IMG/VR virus record: IMGVR_UViG_3300027710_000034
Location: 1 to 54,412 of that record
Length of the DNA stretch: 54,412 nt
Source of the DNA: a virus
Direction: 5' to 3' (one strand)
Shown: positions 36,384 through 51,836 of the stretch, in pieces
Layout of the letters: each line of letters begins with the position of its first letter
Numbering within the stretch: position 1 is the first letter of the stretch
The notes under the pieces: generated by a model
Told to the model about the DNA's origin: nothing
What the model saw: only the letters and a program-made list of their open reading frames with translations
Database searches by the model: none
Program-made: the position numbers and the translations under genes

Positions 36384-36421
36384 GTATGAATAATGGTGAA
36401 ACAATAAGGAGTGATTATATT

Positions 36422-36697
36422 ATGAAACGTAGCAAAACACACGGTGTTGTATATCGCAAAACAGTCAGTGAACGGCATCTAACATTACCATTCGAGGGTG
36501 TCCCAAAACTCGTAGTAACAACTAAGTACTGCCCATGCTGTGATAGTCATCTACCACTGGCACACTTTTATCTGAAGTCTGAATTTCCTGGTGATGAACG
36601 ACTGCGCAATCAATGCGTAGAGTGCTGGGATGAACATAATGGACGCAATCGCGAAAAATCTCCTGATGCATCTGCCTCTCTGGTAGCGCTGTTCTAA
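36422..36697 (+). CDS. Zinc-hook protein, endonuclease VII N-terminus-like
   Basis: A 91-residue basic protein; ATG 36422 follows AAGGAG. YCPCC (37-41) and QCVECWDEHNGR (64-75) form a four-cysteine zinc site separated by HFYLKSEFPGDERLR, the arrangement seen at the start of T4 endonuclease VII-like and HNH proteins. The catalytic part is missing, so it is a binding module or a fragment. Confidence 0.68.
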   Translation: MKRSKTHGVVYRKTVSERHLTLPFEGVPKLVVTTKYCPCCDSHLPLAHFYLKSEFPGDERLRNQCVECWDEHNGRNREKSPDASASLVALF

Positions 36698-37715: not shown

Positions 37716-37885
37716 ATAATTTTCTCATCGAAAAAGACCTAGGATATACGAACTACACCAATGGTAAGTATGTCACTGAGGATAATGCTACACACATTGC
37801 AGTGCATGAACATGGTGCATTAGTAATAAAGGAATATGAGAGAGCATCATTGGAGTCAGTGATACTGGAGGTGATGAATGGGTGA
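37712..37885 (+). CDS. Hypothetical small protein
   Basis: A 57-residue acidic protein (LGYTNYTNGKYVTEDNATH). Coupled to the previous gene by a 4-bp overlap and to the next by 8 bp. Confidence 0.58.
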   Translation: MNNFLIEKDLGYTNYTNGKYVTEDNATHIAVHEHGALVIKEYERASLESVILEVMNG

Positions 37886-38042
37886 TGATTATAAAGATGC
37901 ACTGATAGAGAAAATCCACACATGGACGTATGATACACTGAATGATGATGCTAAACTTGCTGCGTGGAAGGCATATGGTAACTTCCGTATTCCATCTGAG
38001 AAAGAAATCGCATTAGATGAACTGTTCGAGGGAGTAAAGTAA
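37878..38042 (+). CDS. Hypothetical small protein
   Basis: A 54-residue acidic helical protein with GGAGG 5 bases before the ATG. KLAAWKAYGNFRIPSEKEIA in the middle. No family recognised. Confidence 0.62.
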   Translation: MGDDYKDALIEKIHTWTYDTLNDDAKLAAWKAYGNFRIPSEKEIALDELFEGVK

Positions 38043-43434: not shown

Positions 43435-44772
43435 ATGGTTAAAGTTATTGTCGCCGATTCTAAACTAGATTGCGAGCATCTGCTCGGTCAATATCTAGAT
43501 GAGAGTCATTTCGACATTGTGGTCAATGAAGATACAGACTGTTATAAAGAGTCTGATTCTCTGCTCGATACAGAGTTGACTGAAAACAGGATTGCATTTA
43601 AGTTTCGTAAGAACTTCTTCTCGCCAGAAGAACAGGAGCAGGCATACATTGGTCTGCGCGAAGCAGCAACCGAATCACAGAATCGTGGTCTGGCAGCAGG
43701 TCCACGTGGTGAGTTGCTAGGCGTAGAAGGTCGCGGTGGTCGCGACTGGGTAACTGATTACGAACTCGAGATTCTTGATTTTCTGATGACAGATAAGGGT
43801 CGACTGATCGACGAACTTAGTATCGAGAGCATTCGTGCTAAGCATGCAGGTGCACCACGATCTAATGCAGATGAAACTCGAGGCGCAGTCTGGTTGCGCA
43901 GTCAAGTATGTAAAGTATATCCAGAATATTTTGGTTGGTTCGACGTATGGGTCGACAGTCTAGAAACAAAGAGTAAAGAAGATGTTGCAAAGGAAGCGCG
44001 AAATATCGCAGAGAACTGGATTTCAACAACCAACTATGCTAAGTCGGTTTTCTCAGGCGTTGCTGGATGGTATGACCGATATCCTAGAATTCCTTTCGGT
44101 CGTGCTACTACTTACACTCGTGACAATTTTGATAAGTTTAAGTTGGCCTTTCCTTTTCTACAATCTCTTAATCGCGGGTTTAAAGAACTCCTCCCTCGGC
44201 GTTGGTCTAACCAAAAGAGTGCCGTGGATACAATCGATAGTCGATTCGTGGTCCCAGAAACAGTATTCACCACGATCACCGTCAACAAGTCTTTCCGAAC
44301 GGCAGCGCATCGTGACGCAGGCGATTTTGCTGATGGTCTCAGTAATCTTCTGGTCGTTGGTAGTGGTGACTATACTGGCGGTTATCTAATCTTTCCTGAG
44401 TATCGCATCGCAGTGAATGTTCGTCCAGGTGACTTGTTGCTAGTCAGCAATCATGAGATCATTCACGGTAACACCGAGATTAAACTGACAAGTCCAGATG
44501 CTGAGCGTATTTCGTTGGTTTGCTATTTGCGCGAGAACATGCTAGAACTTGGTTCATATGAATATGAAACAACTCGCGAGCAATATGTCATTGACCGCAG
44601 AACTAATAGAGAACACCACCACTATCGTCCACTCTGGAATGGCGTATCTCCAGGAATGTGGGACGAACAAGAATGGTATGACTACCTCGAAACTAAACTT
44701 GGTCGAGATACAGTTGCCAAGTATCATCCTAAAGCATACCAAACAACATCAACACTTGGAGATCTATTTTAA
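43435..44772 (+). CDS. TET/JBP-family 2OG-Fe(II) dioxygenase (5-methylcytosine hydroxylase)
   Basis: A 445-residue protein. The C-terminal double-stranded beta-helix has the TET/JBP signature: HRD (H292, D294) in FRTAAHRDAGDFADG, GDYTGGYLIFPEY, DLLLVSNHEIIHGN (H344) and R358 in ERISLVCYLRE; upstream FGRATTYTRDNFDKF is also typical. Phage TET enzymes hydroxylate 5-methylcytosine in phage DNA as the first step of hypermodification. The next gene is a glycosyltransferase, as in known phage TET loci. No cytosine methyltransferase is in the window; it may be elsewhere. The C-terminus ends TSTLGDLF, resembling a sliding-clamp-binding peptide. Confidence 0.88.
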   Translation: MVKVIVADSKLDCEHLLGQYLDESHFDIVVNEDTDCYKESDSLLDTELTENRIAFKFRKNFFSPEEQEQAYIGLREAATESQNRGLAAGPRGELLGVEGRGGRDWVTDYELEILDFLMTDKGRLIDELSIESIRAKHAGAPRSNADETRGAVWLRSQVCKVYPEYFGWFDVWVDSLETKSKEDVAKEARNIAENWISTTNYAKSVFSGVAGWYDRYPRIPFGRATTYTRDNFDKFKLAFPFLQSLNRGFKELLPRRWSNQKSAVDTIDSRFVVPETVFTTITVNKSFRTAAHRDAGDFADGLSNLLVVGSGDYTGGYLIFPEYRIAVNVRPGDLLLVSNHEIIHGNTEIKLTSPDAERISLVCYLRENMLELGSYEYETTREQYVIDRRTNREHHHYRPLWNGVSPGMWDEQEWYDYLETKLGRDTVAKYHPKAYQTTSTLGDLF

Positions 44773-45581
44773 TGGAATATAGTATTGCTATTCCGTCTTA
44801 TCATCGTGAACATACTATTCAGAATAAGACGTTGAAAGTTCTTGAATCATATAACATCGATCCTGCTAAAATCACGATCTTTGTTAATGATCAGGATGAA
44901 GGCGAATATGATCGATATGCTAATGCGTTGAAGGAAAACCCTTACGCAAAGGATATCCAGATTGTTCGTGGTGTTCCAACTATCGGAAAACAACGTAACT
45001 TTATTGAACGTTGGTATCCGGAAGGCACACGACTGATGATGTTCGATGATGATATTGAAGAAGTTCAAGTCAAAGTCAGTGAACAGAAGTTGGGTCGTGT
45101 CGAAGATCTCGAGCGAGAAATCTTTATTCGTGGATTTGAGGAATGCGAGAAGGTAGGTGCTAAGACCTTTGGTATCTACGCAGCATCGAATGCATTCTTT
45201 ATGAAAGATCGAGTATACAATGACATTTGCTATATCATTGCCTCGATGTTTGGTGTGATTGTTGAACATGATGATTTTCTCGCTCGAGTAACCAACCATG
45301 GTGAAGACTACGAATATTCTATTCGCCAGTATATTAAGAATGGTGTTCTTGCTCGCCTTGACAACTACACAGTCAAGTCTCGGTACTACAAGGAAGAAGG
45401 TGGACTTCAAGATGTTCGCACTAAGGAATATGTGTATGACAGTGTGAAGATTATTGCGGACGAGTTCCCCGACCTTTGCACGATGTATATCCGCGAAACT
45501 ACTGGACATGCTGAATTGAAACTGCATGACCGCAACAAGAAGTATCGTAAAGTAGAATCTTCACTAGAGGATCTATTTTAG
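44772..45581 (+). CDS. TET-associated glycosyltransferase
   Basis: A 269-residue GT-A enzyme. MEYSIAIPSYHRE is the nucleotide-binding start, IGKQRNFIERW the following helix, and MMFDDDIEEV the DxD metal site (near residue 90). NHGEDYEYS matches the acidic acceptor-side motif. Its ATG overlaps the stop of the TET gene, and phage TET genes are known to be paired with glycosyltransferases that modify 5-hydroxymethylcytosine. It ends ESSLEDLF, the same kind of tail as its partner. Confidence 0.87.
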   Translation: MEYSIAIPSYHREHTIQNKTLKVLESYNIDPAKITIFVNDQDEGEYDRYANALKENPYAKDIQIVRGVPTIGKQRNFIERWYPEGTRLMMFDDDIEEVQVKVSEQKLGRVEDLEREIFIRGFEECEKVGAKTFGIYAASNAFFMKDRVYNDICYIIASMFGVIVEHDDFLARVTNHGEDYEYSIRQYIKNGVLARLDNYTVKSRYYKEEGGLQDVRTKEYVYDSVKIIADEFPDLCTMYIRETTGHAELKLHDRNKKYRKVESSLEDLF

Positions 45582-45618: not shown

Positions 45619-46737
45619 ATGATACTAGAAAAAACAGATGCAGAATACATTGGTCGTCGATTTATTGATTATATGTCAAACTATAATCGTATCGACGACC
45701 ACATGCGTATGAAAAAACTTGAGCGATTAAAAACTCTTCCTTCCACACTTCCAGGATATGAACCAGAGAATATGTTGTTCTCTGATTTTAGTATGCACCC
45801 AGAAGATATGGAATTTGAGATCTTTGAACCAACTGCCAGCGAGTTCTCGACTATGGTTGAGATTACTTCTTCTTTCTGCAACGAGAACTCATTCGGCAAA
45901 GAAATTAAATTTATTGTTCGCGAGAAGAACAGTGGTAAGTATGTTGGTTTCTGTCGAGTCGCAAGCCCATTCATCAATTCTAGACCGAGGAATGAATGGT
46001 TCGGGCAAGTCCCCGATCTAAAGTCATTCAACAAGCATGCAGTAATGGGATTCATTATTGTTCCAACACAACCGTTCGGTTTTAATTATCTCGGCGGTAA
46101 ACTGCTTGCACTTCTTTGCGCATCTCATGAATTTCGTGAAATGTTCAATAAGAAGTATGATATGGAAACTTGTCTCTTTGAAACGACATCATTATACGGA
46201 AATATCAAGCAAGCATCGCAGTATGATGGTCTTAAACCATTTTTACGGTACACTGGCGACACTGTTAGCAATTTTCTCCTCTCATTCTCCGATGATTTTT
46301 GGTTTGAGACCTTAAATTGGTTTGCAAGCAAAAATAATGGCGAACCTTTGTTCGGCAGAGAGGGAATTGCGTCGTATAAGATGAAAATGCAAAATAAAAT
46401 GATGTCAATTATCAAAAATTCGCTAAAATATCATAATTCTAGCGAACTTTTGGCGTTTACAGACGCAATTCAGGCGAACAAAGACGTTACGACGCAAAAA
46501 AGATTTTATATTTCAACTTATGGGTACGAAAATTCGAAAAATTACATCCTCGGAACCGATAAAACGCTGATCAAGAGCAAAGAAAACTTCGACAAGCACT
46601 ATTCAGATAATATTATTCGCTGGTGGAAGAAAAAAGCGTCTTCAAGATACGAAAATCTGAAGTCAGACGGAAGATTGCGTAACAATCTTGAAATTTGGAA
46701 CAATGACACCATTGATACAATTGATATCATCCGTTGA
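45619..46737 (+). CDS. GNAT/DUF4338-like protein next to the TET pathway
   Basis: A 372-residue protein. The segment IKFIVREKNSGKYVGFCRV, HAVMGFIIVPTQPFGFNYLG and CLFETTSLYGNIKQASQYDG resembles the GNAT-like core shared by DUF4338 proteins and Mom-type DNA-modifying acyltransferases. The C-terminal third is Lys-rich and helical. Beside TET and glycosyltransferase genes it may add a further group to the modified base; this is inference from context. Translated probably without a leader. The 3' third is richer in A/T and AAA codons than the 5' part. Confidence 0.6.
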   Translation: MILEKTDAEYIGRRFIDYMSNYNRIDDHMRMKKLERLKTLPSTLPGYEPENMLFSDFSMHPEDMEFEIFEPTASEFSTMVEITSSFCNENSFGKEIKFIVREKNSGKYVGFCRVASPFINSRPRNEWFGQVPDLKSFNKHAVMGFIIVPTQPFGFNYLGGKLLALLCASHEFREMFNKKYDMETCLFETTSLYGNIKQASQYDGLKPFLRYTGDTVSNFLLSFSDDFWFETLNWFASKNNGEPLFGREGIASYKMKMQNKMMSIIKNSLKYHNSSELLAFTDAIQANKDVTTQKRFYISTYGYENSKNYILGTDKTLIKSKENFDKHYSDNIIRWWKKKASSRYENLKSDGRLRNNLEIWNNDTIDTIDIIR

Positions 46738-49137: not shown

Positions 49138-49962
49138 ATGAAAAAAATAATTCTCCTTCCAATTCTACTAGCAACTTCTGGTTGTGTTGGTGCGCTTCAT
49201 CCTACTGCCAACCAATCATATCTGTTCAGAGATGATGCAGAAGTCAAACGTTTTGCGAATCCAAAATTGTTCAAGAATCTTCCTGAATTAGATGGCCAAC
49301 CAATTCCTATCGCGCTGTATTCATTTACTGATAGAACTGGTCAACGTAAACCATCTTCAACTCTTGCAAGTTTCTCGACTGCAGTAACTCAAGGTGCAGA
49401 TGCTTATCTGATCAAAACACTGCAAGATACAGGAGACGGTAAGTGGTTTACACCAGTCGAGCGTGTTGGTATTGATTCGCTGATCAAAGAACGTCAACTT
49501 GTTCGTCAAATGCGCGAACAACTTTCTGGCGAGAGTGCTGAACCTCTTCCACCACTCAAGGTTGCTGGTATCATCTTAGAAGGTGGTATTATTGACTATA
49601 ACTCGAATATTAAAACAGGTGGTACTGGTGCTAGATTCCTTGGCATCGGTCCATATCAACAATACACCCAAGATCAGGTAACAATTAGTCTTCGTCTGGT
49701 TTCTGTCCAAACTGGCGAAGTTCTAAATTCAGTTACAGTGGAAAAGACAGTTCTCTCGACTTCCGAGGGGGTGACTGCGTTCACATTCTTCGACATGGCG
49801 ACTAGAGCATTTGAATTTGATGGACAACAAACAAGTAATGAAGCAGGTAGTTATGCGATCCGTTCTGCCATAGAAACGGCCGTTGTTGAGTTGATCAAGG
49901 ATGGTGAAAGAAAGAATCTATGGAGATTCAAACAAAAGGAAACGACAAATGAAACTAAGTAA
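49138..49962 (+). CDS. csgG: Curli secretion pore lipoprotein CsgG
   Basis: A 274-residue outer-membrane lipoprotein (lipobox TSGC, cysteine 16). ALYSFTDRTGQRK, FSTAVTQGADAYLIKTL, WFTPVERVGIDSLIKERQ, YNSNIKTGGTGARFLGIG and the C-terminal SAIETAVVELI align by eye with E. coli CsgG along its length. Nine copies form a secretion channel for curlin subunits. In the constriction loop the Phe of FSTAV is kept but the E. coli Tyr51 and Asn55 positions appear to be Ser and the loop one residue longer. It overlaps the curlin-like gene by 14 bp. Confidence 0.93.
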   Translation: MKKIILLPILLATSGCVGALHPTANQSYLFRDDAEVKRFANPKLFKNLPELDGQPIPIALYSFTDRTGQRKPSSTLASFSTAVTQGADAYLIKTLQDTGDGKWFTPVERVGIDSLIKERQLVRQMREQLSGESAEPLPPLKVAGIILEGGIIDYNSNIKTGGTGARFLGIGPYQQYTQDQVTISLRLVSVQTGEVLNSVTVEKTVLSTSEGVTAFTFFDMATRAFEFDGQQTSNEAGSYAIRSAIETAVVELIKDGERKNLWRFKQKETTNETK

Positions 49963-50722
49963 GTTTTTATTAGTTGGTGCTGCTCTTTGTTATGGAACAT
50001 CTGTGATTGCACAAACTGTACTGCCAACAGCACCAACTCCTCCAGCAATTGTAACAACTTCGCCAAATGAAACAGAGGCAAATACTGTTGCAACTACAAA
50101 TAAGGTATATATCGATCAAGAAGGGGGCAACGTAGATGTTAACATCGTTCAAACTGGCACTGCTAACGTTATCGGTTCTTCTATTGATCCTATTTACCTA
50201 CGTGGTGATAACCAAAGCGTTATCGCAATACAAACAGGCAATGGAAACCAACTTTATATGGGTGTCGTATCCGACACAGGAGCACAAGGAATCGCCGATG
50301 TAACAATTCGTCAAATTGGCGATTTAAACACTGCTACTATTCGTTGTGGGACAGAAGTAACTGACTCCTCATGTAATCAACTCGACATGAATGCCAAGTT
50401 CACTGGTAATAACAACTCGTTTGTTTTCCGTGGTTCGGGTGCTAATATCCGTAACTCTATGGATTTCAACGGTAACAATAACACAATCAACATGGATGCA
50501 CTATCACCAAATGCGTCACAAACTATTCTGGTGACAGGAAACTACAATGACTTTGATGTTACACAAACTGGTACTGGTGGAACATTCGGTCACTCGCTTT
50601 ATGTTAATCTAACAGGTTCATTAAACACTATAACAACACAACAGTATGGTGTTTCTGAGACTGTGATCAATATTAATAGTGTGGGATCAAATGGCACGTT
50701 TAATATCAAAACTGGTCACTAA
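49949..50722 (+). CDS. Curlin-repeat secreted protein 1
   Basis: A 257-residue protein with signal peptide (cleavage near SVIAQ) then repeated strand-turn units carrying the curlin ladder Qx4N: VNIVQTGTANVIG, IAIQTGNGNQLYM, VTIRQIGDLNTAT, further GNNNS/GNNNT and TQTGTGG units. Curlin subunits (CsgA/CsgB) use this pattern to form amyloid. It is longer than CsgA (about 150) and more irregular. It follows csgG directly and would be its cargo. Confidence 0.8.
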   Translation: MKLSKFLLVGAALCYGTSVIAQTVLPTAPTPPAIVTTSPNETEANTVATTNKVYIDQEGGNVDVNIVQTGTANVIGSSIDPIYLRGDNQSVIAIQTGNGNQLYMGVVSDTGAQGIADVTIRQIGDLNTATIRCGTEVTDSSCNQLDMNAKFTGNNNSFVFRGSGANIRNSMDFNGNNNTINMDALSPNASQTILVTGNYNDFDVTQTGTGGTFGHSLYVNLTGSLNTITTQQYGVSETVININSVGSNGTFNIKTGH

Positions 50723-51836
50723 TCTTCTACTGATATTTCTGTTATCGACTCCTGCCTTTGCGGATATTGGGTCGATAACAGATTTCAGAGGAGGTGGTGC
50801 CATTAAGCGTGGCGCCAAGACTACAGTTGCATCTAAGGGTGCAAGAGTTCAAAAGATGGACACTGTTTCAACAAACAGTCAAGGCAGATTTAGGATAACA
50901 TTTAATGACTCGACTACCGTCAATATTACAGAAAACTCTCGCCTTCTTGTGGATGACTTTGTGTATGATGGGGGAGGGAACACGAAGGGCAAACTTGGAC
51001 TTCGGGTCGCGCTTGGCACCGTCAGATACGCATCAGGTAAAGTCGCAAAAACAAATCCACGAGGCGTAAACATTCGCACACCGACTGCCACTATCGCAGT
51101 CCGTGGCACAGACTTCGTTATGTCGGTTGATGAAGCAGGTCGTTCTACGGTCGTGCTGGTTCCCGAATGTTATAACGAACTAGACATTACAAAACAAACT
51201 GCGGAATGTCCGAATGGAATGATAGATGTCATTACAGCATCTGGCGTAGTTACATTAACACAACCATTCCAAGCAACAGTTGTGGAAAACAACTTTGCGC
51301 CACCTGCTCCGCCAGTAGTTATCAATCCATTAGTTAAGACATTAGATAACAATGTTCAAATTGTTCCGTTGGAAACAGATGATGGTCAGAGTTTGCTCCA
51401 ACTTGCCAGAGATAGTCTAAAGAAATTTACGAATCCCGCAAAAGCAGCATCGGATGATAACAAAGACCCAGATGCAGGCACAAACGATAACGTGGAACAA
51501 GTTACAGTTGCTATGCTTCGCCAAGCAACACCGCAAGAACTTCTGGATGTTTATGCCGAGTTCAACGAAGGAACCAAACCAGCAGAAACAATCTATACTA
51601 ATGTATCGCCAACATTCAAGAAGAACGTTCAGGTTGGTTGGGTGTATACTCGATTATCGGACGACAAACAACAAGCAATTACTGTTTGGTTAGAAAAAGG
51701 AACAGAAGCGCAAGTCGTATCTGTTCAAAATGGATTAGTAGATGTTTACAACTTTATGGACGACAAGTGGACAACATCGGGAACTGGTAGACCACAGGGC
51801 AATATCACAGTGATGCAAGAAACAGGTGCAAGATGA
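50691..51836 (+). CDS. Secreted FecR-domain protein
   Basis: A 381-residue protein with signal peptide (STPAFA) and a FecR domain at about residues 27-165: VQKMDTVSTNSQGRFRITF, a TTVNITENSRL strand, and VNIRTPTATIAVRGTDFVM, the typical RTPxAxxxVRGT motif. The C-terminal half is acidic with Ala/Asp linkers and a beta-rich end. Unlike iron-sensing FecR it has no obvious membrane anchor beyond the signal. It overlaps the curlin-like gene by 32 bp, so it belongs to the same operon. Role perhaps binding or regulating the surface fibre. Confidence 0.85.
   Translation: MARLISKLVTNLLLIFLLSTPAFADIGSITDFRGGGAIKRGAKTTVASKGARVQKMDTVSTNSQGRFRITFNDSTTVNITENSRLLVDDFVYDGGGNTKGKLGLRVALGTVRYASGKVAKTNPRGVNIRTPTATIAVRGTDFVMSVDEAGRSTVVLVPECYNELDITKQTAECPNGMIDVITASGVVTLTQPFQATVVENNFAPPAPPVVINPLVKTLDNNVQIVPLETDDGQSLLQLARDSLKKFTNPAKAASDDNKDPDAGTNDNVEQVTVAMLRQATPQELLDVYAEFNEGTKPAETIYTNVSPTFKKNVQVGWVYTRLSDDKQQAITVWLEKGTEAQVVSVQNGLVDVYNFMDDKWTTSGTGRPQGNITVMQETGAR

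Follow-up and report, generated by a model that had tools for sequence, protein, structure and literature searches.

The window, by which we mean the whole stretch of DNA analysed here (54,412 nucleotides; IMG/VR virus record IMGVR_UViG_3300027710_000034), encodes a TET dioxygenase and a glycosyltransferase from adjacent genes, and the two proteins end in similar short peptides. We asked whether these tails could tether the enzymes to a sliding clamp and, if so, to which clamp. The features concerned are as follows:

43435..44772, + strand: TET/JBP-family 2OG-Fe(II) DNA dioxygenase (TET), 445 aa (PF12851 Tet_JBP, E 1e-23; AlphaFold2 pLDDT 85.7)
44746..44769, + strand: TET C-terminal tail TSTLGDLF, predicted gp45 clamp-binding motif (from sequence and conservation)
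44772..45581, + strand: TET-associated glycosyltransferase (TAGT), GT-A-like, 269 aa (PF20691, E 1e-12; pLDDT 88.7)
45555..45578, + strand: TAGT C-terminal tail ESSLEDLF, predicted gp45 clamp-binding motif (from sequence; linker followed by a short helix in the model)

TET and TAGT of the window end in similar tails

The C-terminus of TET reads ...KAYQTTSTLGDLF before a stop codon at 44770-44772, and that of TAGT reads ...RKVESSLEDLF before a stop codon at 45579-45581; the TET stop and the TAGT start codon ATG overlap as TAATG. Membership of the TET/JBP family was supported by both domain (PF12851) and fold, the best PDB matches of the AlphaFold2 model being CcTet, NgTET1 and TET2, and the assignment of TAGT was supported by the PF20691 domain, a GT-A-like fold (GT-A matches in the PDB) and adjacency to TET. 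Confidence falls below pLDDT 50 at the end of the TET model, where residues 441-444 form a four-residue helix; in the TAGT model, linker residues 258-262 have pLDDT <50 and are followed by a short helix at 265-268. The claim of the preliminary description that the two proteins share this kind of tail in spite of unrelated folds accordingly held, with the exact C-termini confirmed and the predicted folds being TET-like and GT-A-like, respectively. Its further claim that no other protein of the window has the tail nearly held, but not strictly. Among the 92 window genes (a heuristic gene set), the strict tail was found in TET, TAGT and a few others, and the only other plausible gene product was the following:

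36386..36697, + strand: 103-aa HNH/zinc-ribbon-like protein ending SASLVALF, possible third clamp-tail protein (weak phrog matches; a weak case)

The collection scan gave no homologues of this protein; only weak matches, with variable tails, were obtained in the fetched related loci, several ending in [TN][LI]xxF-like sequences (RTLDDFICEEV, SNTIEKFLTDEV and NDLTEFI) and others not. A 54-aa ORF at 37878-38042 ending in EIALDELFEGVK was rejected, as it has no relatives in the fetched loci.

The tail is conserved in a few protein families

Relatives were drawn from IMG/VR and GenBank phages. A scan of 6178 ORFs from related loci showed that the tail recurs in very few families, namely TET (101/116), the gp43 polymerase (59/59), TAGT (52/63), a GT-B transferase (5/5) and the amino-acid:DNA transferase ADDT (10/24). 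Under a stricter C-terminal pattern, [STNDG][LI]xx[FLM][FLW], and with redundancy removed, it was found in 48 of 59 TETs, 18 of 20 gp43 proteins and 18 of 27 TAGTs, compared with 24 of the 4796 other ORFs of the same contigs. On inspection, seven of those 24 were additional TAGT-like, GNAT or methyltransferase proteins or unassigned products of the operons, which brings the background to 17/4789. The enrichment over this background was large for TET (Fisher test, P about 1e-89) and TAGT (P about 7e-35), these values being indicative only because the relatives are not independent.

If the tails are clamp-binding motifs of the kind known from T4, they should lie at the extreme C-terminus, follow a flexible and variable linker and resemble the hydrophobic and acidic end of the same phage's gp43. 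All three expectations were met. The motif lies 0-2 residues from the C-terminus in TET, TAGT and gp43, and nearly all full-length TETs of the window's branch end in [STN]Lxx[FL]F with 0 or 1 residue beyond. The 15-25 residues preceding the TET tail vary in length and sequence between relatives, with a column identity of 35% as against 72% in the tail, and the model confidence is low at TAGT 258-262 and at the TET end. Within the TET tail, the Leu and the final Phe are each 97% conserved (38 relatives). The third expectation was met by comparison within the same contigs or clades, as described in the next section. The tails thus occur far beyond chance and are better conserved than the linker that precedes them. 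Absence of the tail from close homologues, which would have refuted the proposal, did not occur. There are exceptions, such as the TET of Cr30, in which the tail is eroded (TGATLF), and that of contig L076, which ends YTLDI.

The cognate polymerase ends in the same tail

The B-family polymerases (gp43) of related phages end in the same tail, as counted above; 13 contigs yielded a polymerase, and all 12 polymerases that were not cut off end with it. For example, in the T4-like phage DLP6, with DNA reported to resist restriction (PMC8228603), gp43 ends ATLDSFFA, TET ends ATLGDFFV and TAGT ends DLSSFFN. For this phage we read all ORFs as well as the annotated genes, since the greedy gene caller had missed true genes. 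The corresponding ends are DLSSLFD (gp43) and DLSKLF (TAGT-like) in Cr30, and DLSAFLV (gp43), SLAGFL (TET) and SLADFLV (TAGT) in the clade of contig G025. The gp43 proteins of the window's own clade end ATLEDLFG or ATLEDLFT, with Leu-Phe as in the TET and TAGT of the window, and two contigs (G036 and G037) carry gp43 and TET together, both with L-F ends.

The tail variants (L-F, F-F and F-L) match between gp43 and the modification enzymes within genomes. The variant class of gp43 agreed with that of TET in 13 of 15 lineages (permutation test, P = 0.002) and with that of TAGT in all nine lineages compared (9/9, P = 0.004), the window clade being counted once; the independent changes behind this match are few (two L-F lineages and one F-L lineage). 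The preliminary description had likened the tails to the peptides by which polymerases dock on clamps, and this claim is supported, since the cognate phage polymerase carries the same tail.

In relatives, the clarity of the gp55 tail varies, some ends being clear (SDLTEFLVN) and others weak. We take as unrelated, and set aside, a baseplate-hub protein whose end is similar (DLP6, RGMENFFV; T4 gp26, RGLKEFFELL).

Association with gp45

The C-terminus of T4 gp43 is a sliding-clamp-binding motif (SCBM) for gp45, and the similar hydrophobic-acidic C-terminal motifs of T4 gp43, gp33 and gp55 bind gp45 interchangeably (PMC2988020). The structures of T4/RB69 gp45 include complexes with such peptides, and polymerase, ligase, gp33 and gp55 are listed as ligands of one hydrophobic patch of gp45 (PMC7892883). 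The gp45 of DLP6 is a sequence homologue of these solved clamps. No match to gp43 or gp45 was detected in the 54-kb window fragment, and the cognate clamp is therefore inferred from relatives.

Of the 31 contigs with the tail, 24 gave a gp45 homologue, among them one close to the window (G002), whereas the seven contigs without the tail gave none (0/7). Likewise, gp45 was not detected in three complete genomes that encode TAGT with or without TET but have no L-x-x-F-F tail, those of Mycobacterium phage Indlovu, Arthrobacter phage Altadena and Synechococcus phage S-CBWM1; the TAGT of S-CBWM1 ends ELEDLLP, although gp45 is undetectable there. The association of the tail with gp45 is thus shown, but it partly reflects phylogeny, since the tail-negative contigs are short and come from other phage types.

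The bacterial beta-clamp motif favours Gln at its first position (Q-L-[SD]-L-F type). The residue before the Leu was Gln in 0 of 80 distinct TET tails, and because of this we infer that the clamp in question is gp45 of the phage and not the beta clamp of the host. Seven gp45 columns tracked the L-F and F-F classes, but only three L-F clamps were available, and this result was set aside.

Tails on other modification enzymes

Where a locus lacks TAGT, the genes after TET encode other modification enzymes, and TET has the tail there too. A GT-B-like transferase (weak Pfam support) ends SSLDSFFS or STLDAMFG, and ADDT (PF18724) ends GLEMFFA, SLTKFLI or GLE[MI]F[TA], the ADDT ends being close to the gp55 ends of similar phages (e.g. 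VGVEKFSE). Among the GNAT acetyltransferases, some have the tail (SSLENFLC, SSLESFLS or LEGLSKFF) and others are without it. In C48C1, a D12-class adenine DNA methyltransferase (L196:3480-4364) adjoining gp43 ends GESTLDAFFG; this tail is probably an isolated gain, because the L-x-x-F-F tail was missing from all seven cyanophage Dam methylase homologues read. Three other enzymes encoded in these operons, a P-loop kinase, a glutamine amidotransferase and an amidoligase, have no tail, which speaks against the proposed rule. The rule hence reaches GT-B, ADDT, some GNATs and one adenine methyltransferase, although action on DNA is not established for each of them.

As for gene order, L027:10001-15012 and similar loci have the order TET, class II glutamine amidotransferase, amidoligase-like protein, GNAT, ADDT and P-loop kinase3, an arrangement that raises the possibility of an amino-acid-type hypermodification downstream of TET. 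Elsewhere, TET is followed by unassigned proteins of 259-261 aa ending STLDNFF (L017:11320-12099) and RSLDEFF (L066:1548-2333), and a protein in the same position in L054 (2008-2781), with a weak RrnaAD-like match, ends NNLDKFI.

Proposed mechanism and alternative explanations

We consider it likely that the base-modifying enzymes are tethered to the gp45 sliding clamp. The presence of the tails, their conservation, their identity with the tail of the cognate polymerase and the variant match within genomes are shown, as is the gp45 association; binding, action at the fork and ordered hand-over are inferred, and there are no binding data. In this model, the catalytic domain of each enzyme would hang on its flexible linker while the last residues dock on a gp45 protomer at its hydrophobic patch; gp45 being a trimer, several partners could be bound to the same ring. 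TET and the enzyme capping its product (here TAGT; in relatives a GT-B transferase, ADDT, GNAT or others) would both be held on newly copied DNA. The resulting higher local concentration may allow glycosylation to follow quickly after oxidation, ahead of host nucleases. Of what the preliminary description had proposed, docking on a sliding clamp is supported by sequence evidence, whereas the data do not reach as far as siting base modification at the replication fork; tracking by gp45 is not confined to the fork (PMC2988020).

A bolder reading, which we favour only by a narrow margin, is that T4-like phages possess a clamp-organised hypermodification line. It would consist of TET and a set of downstream enzymes that are unrelated in fold but can replace one another (GT-A, GT-B, amino-acid:DNA transferase, GNAT acetyltransferase and occasionally adenine methyltransferase), each having acquired the gp45 tail of the polymerase, so that oxidation and successive capping would proceed on a single clamp behind the fork.

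We considered three alternatives, each of which appears very unlikely. The first is that the tails bind the host clamp (DnaN/beta) and not the phage clamp. L-x-x-L-F loosely resembles bacterial beta-binding motifs, and host clamps would also put the enzymes on DNA. Against this, the TET tails lack the Gln noted above, the tail tracks the variant of the phage's own polymerase, and the complete TET/TAGT phages without detectable gp45 have no L-x-x-F-F tail though their hosts have DnaN. The second is that some other partner, common to gp43, gp55 and the modification enzymes, is what the tails bind, or that TET and TAGT contact each other through them. Any conserved C-terminal peptide could serve such a purpose, and the TET and TAGT genes are adjacent, their products probably acting in sequence (as inferred from gene order). 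However, the same peptide is present on gp43, whose T4 version is a gp45 ligand interchangeable with those of gp33 and gp55 (PMC2988020), and the tail is shared by no fewer than five modification families that are unrelated, and is present on TET without TAGT. The third and already disfavoured alternative, that the ends are inherited or recombined 3' ends or products of low-complexity convergence without function, draws on the identity of the last 11 bases of the window TET and TAGT genes (GATCTATTTTA), but codons for the shared residues agree no better within loci (45%) than between them (43%; 47 loci, P = 0.31), the tail is retained as the linker changes, and background ORFs are without the tail. 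The codon comparison indicates that the peptide match is not due to gene conversion; the likeness lies in the peptide, as expected from selection for a common ligand site.

Comparison with known systems

The tails proposed here to be gp45 ligands agree with the SCBMs of T4/RB69 gp43, gp33 and gp55 in being C-terminal, hydrophobic-acidic and preceded by a variable linker (in T4, gp43 ends KASLDFLFG, gp33 NTLDFLL and gp55 PSLDFLYEAND), but in T4/RB69 they are borne by the polymerase and transcription factors and in the window's branch by DNA-modifying enzymes. Clamp docking of DNA-modifying enzymes is itself already known. The T4 alpha-glucosyltransferase is likewise a phage DNA glycosyltransferase that binds gp45 (Sommer 2004; PMC13216743). 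This precedent lends support to the proposal but also cautions against it, the contact being reportedly not the main determinant of the glucosylation ratio (PMC13216743). The alpha-glucosyltransferase differs from TAGT in Pfam family and in that no TET is involved, and neither the T4 alpha- nor the beta-glucosyltransferase has such a C-terminal tail. In eukaryotes, PIP-box proteins such as DNMT1, which binds PCNA, also tether a DNA modification enzyme to a clamp through a short peptide; clamp, motif and position differ, and the two cases are merely analogous. Phage TET-TAGT hypermodification systems (PF12851 and PF20691) have the same gene pair, order and domains, but the clamp tail was found only in the gp45-bearing T4-like branch, with none in the actinophage versions examined. 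We found no report of such tails in the open-access literature searched, a scope that excludes subscription papers on phage TETs.

The tail provides a sequence rule for spotting enzymes, including unannotated ones, that may work on phage DNA in the wake of the polymerase. It also narrows the long-standing problem of how T4-like phages get every new base modified ahead of host nuclease attack to a test of a few residues, and it suggests that DNA-modifying enzymes have repeatedly acquired clamp docking through addition of a peptide.

TET substrate and neighbouring genes

A search of 29 related contigs or genomes and of the window gave no C5-cytosine methyltransferase (PF00145), and the base oxidised by TET is therefore left open; thymine (as for JBP) and host-made 5mC are both possible. 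In the Melnitz phage, a short TET has an HhaI-like methylase adjoining it. Directly downstream of the TAGT gene, the window encodes a DruA-like protein (PF14236, Druantia) at 45619-46737, and CsgG-like and FecR-domain proteins are encoded at 49138-49962 and 50679-51836, within this T4-like phage fragment.
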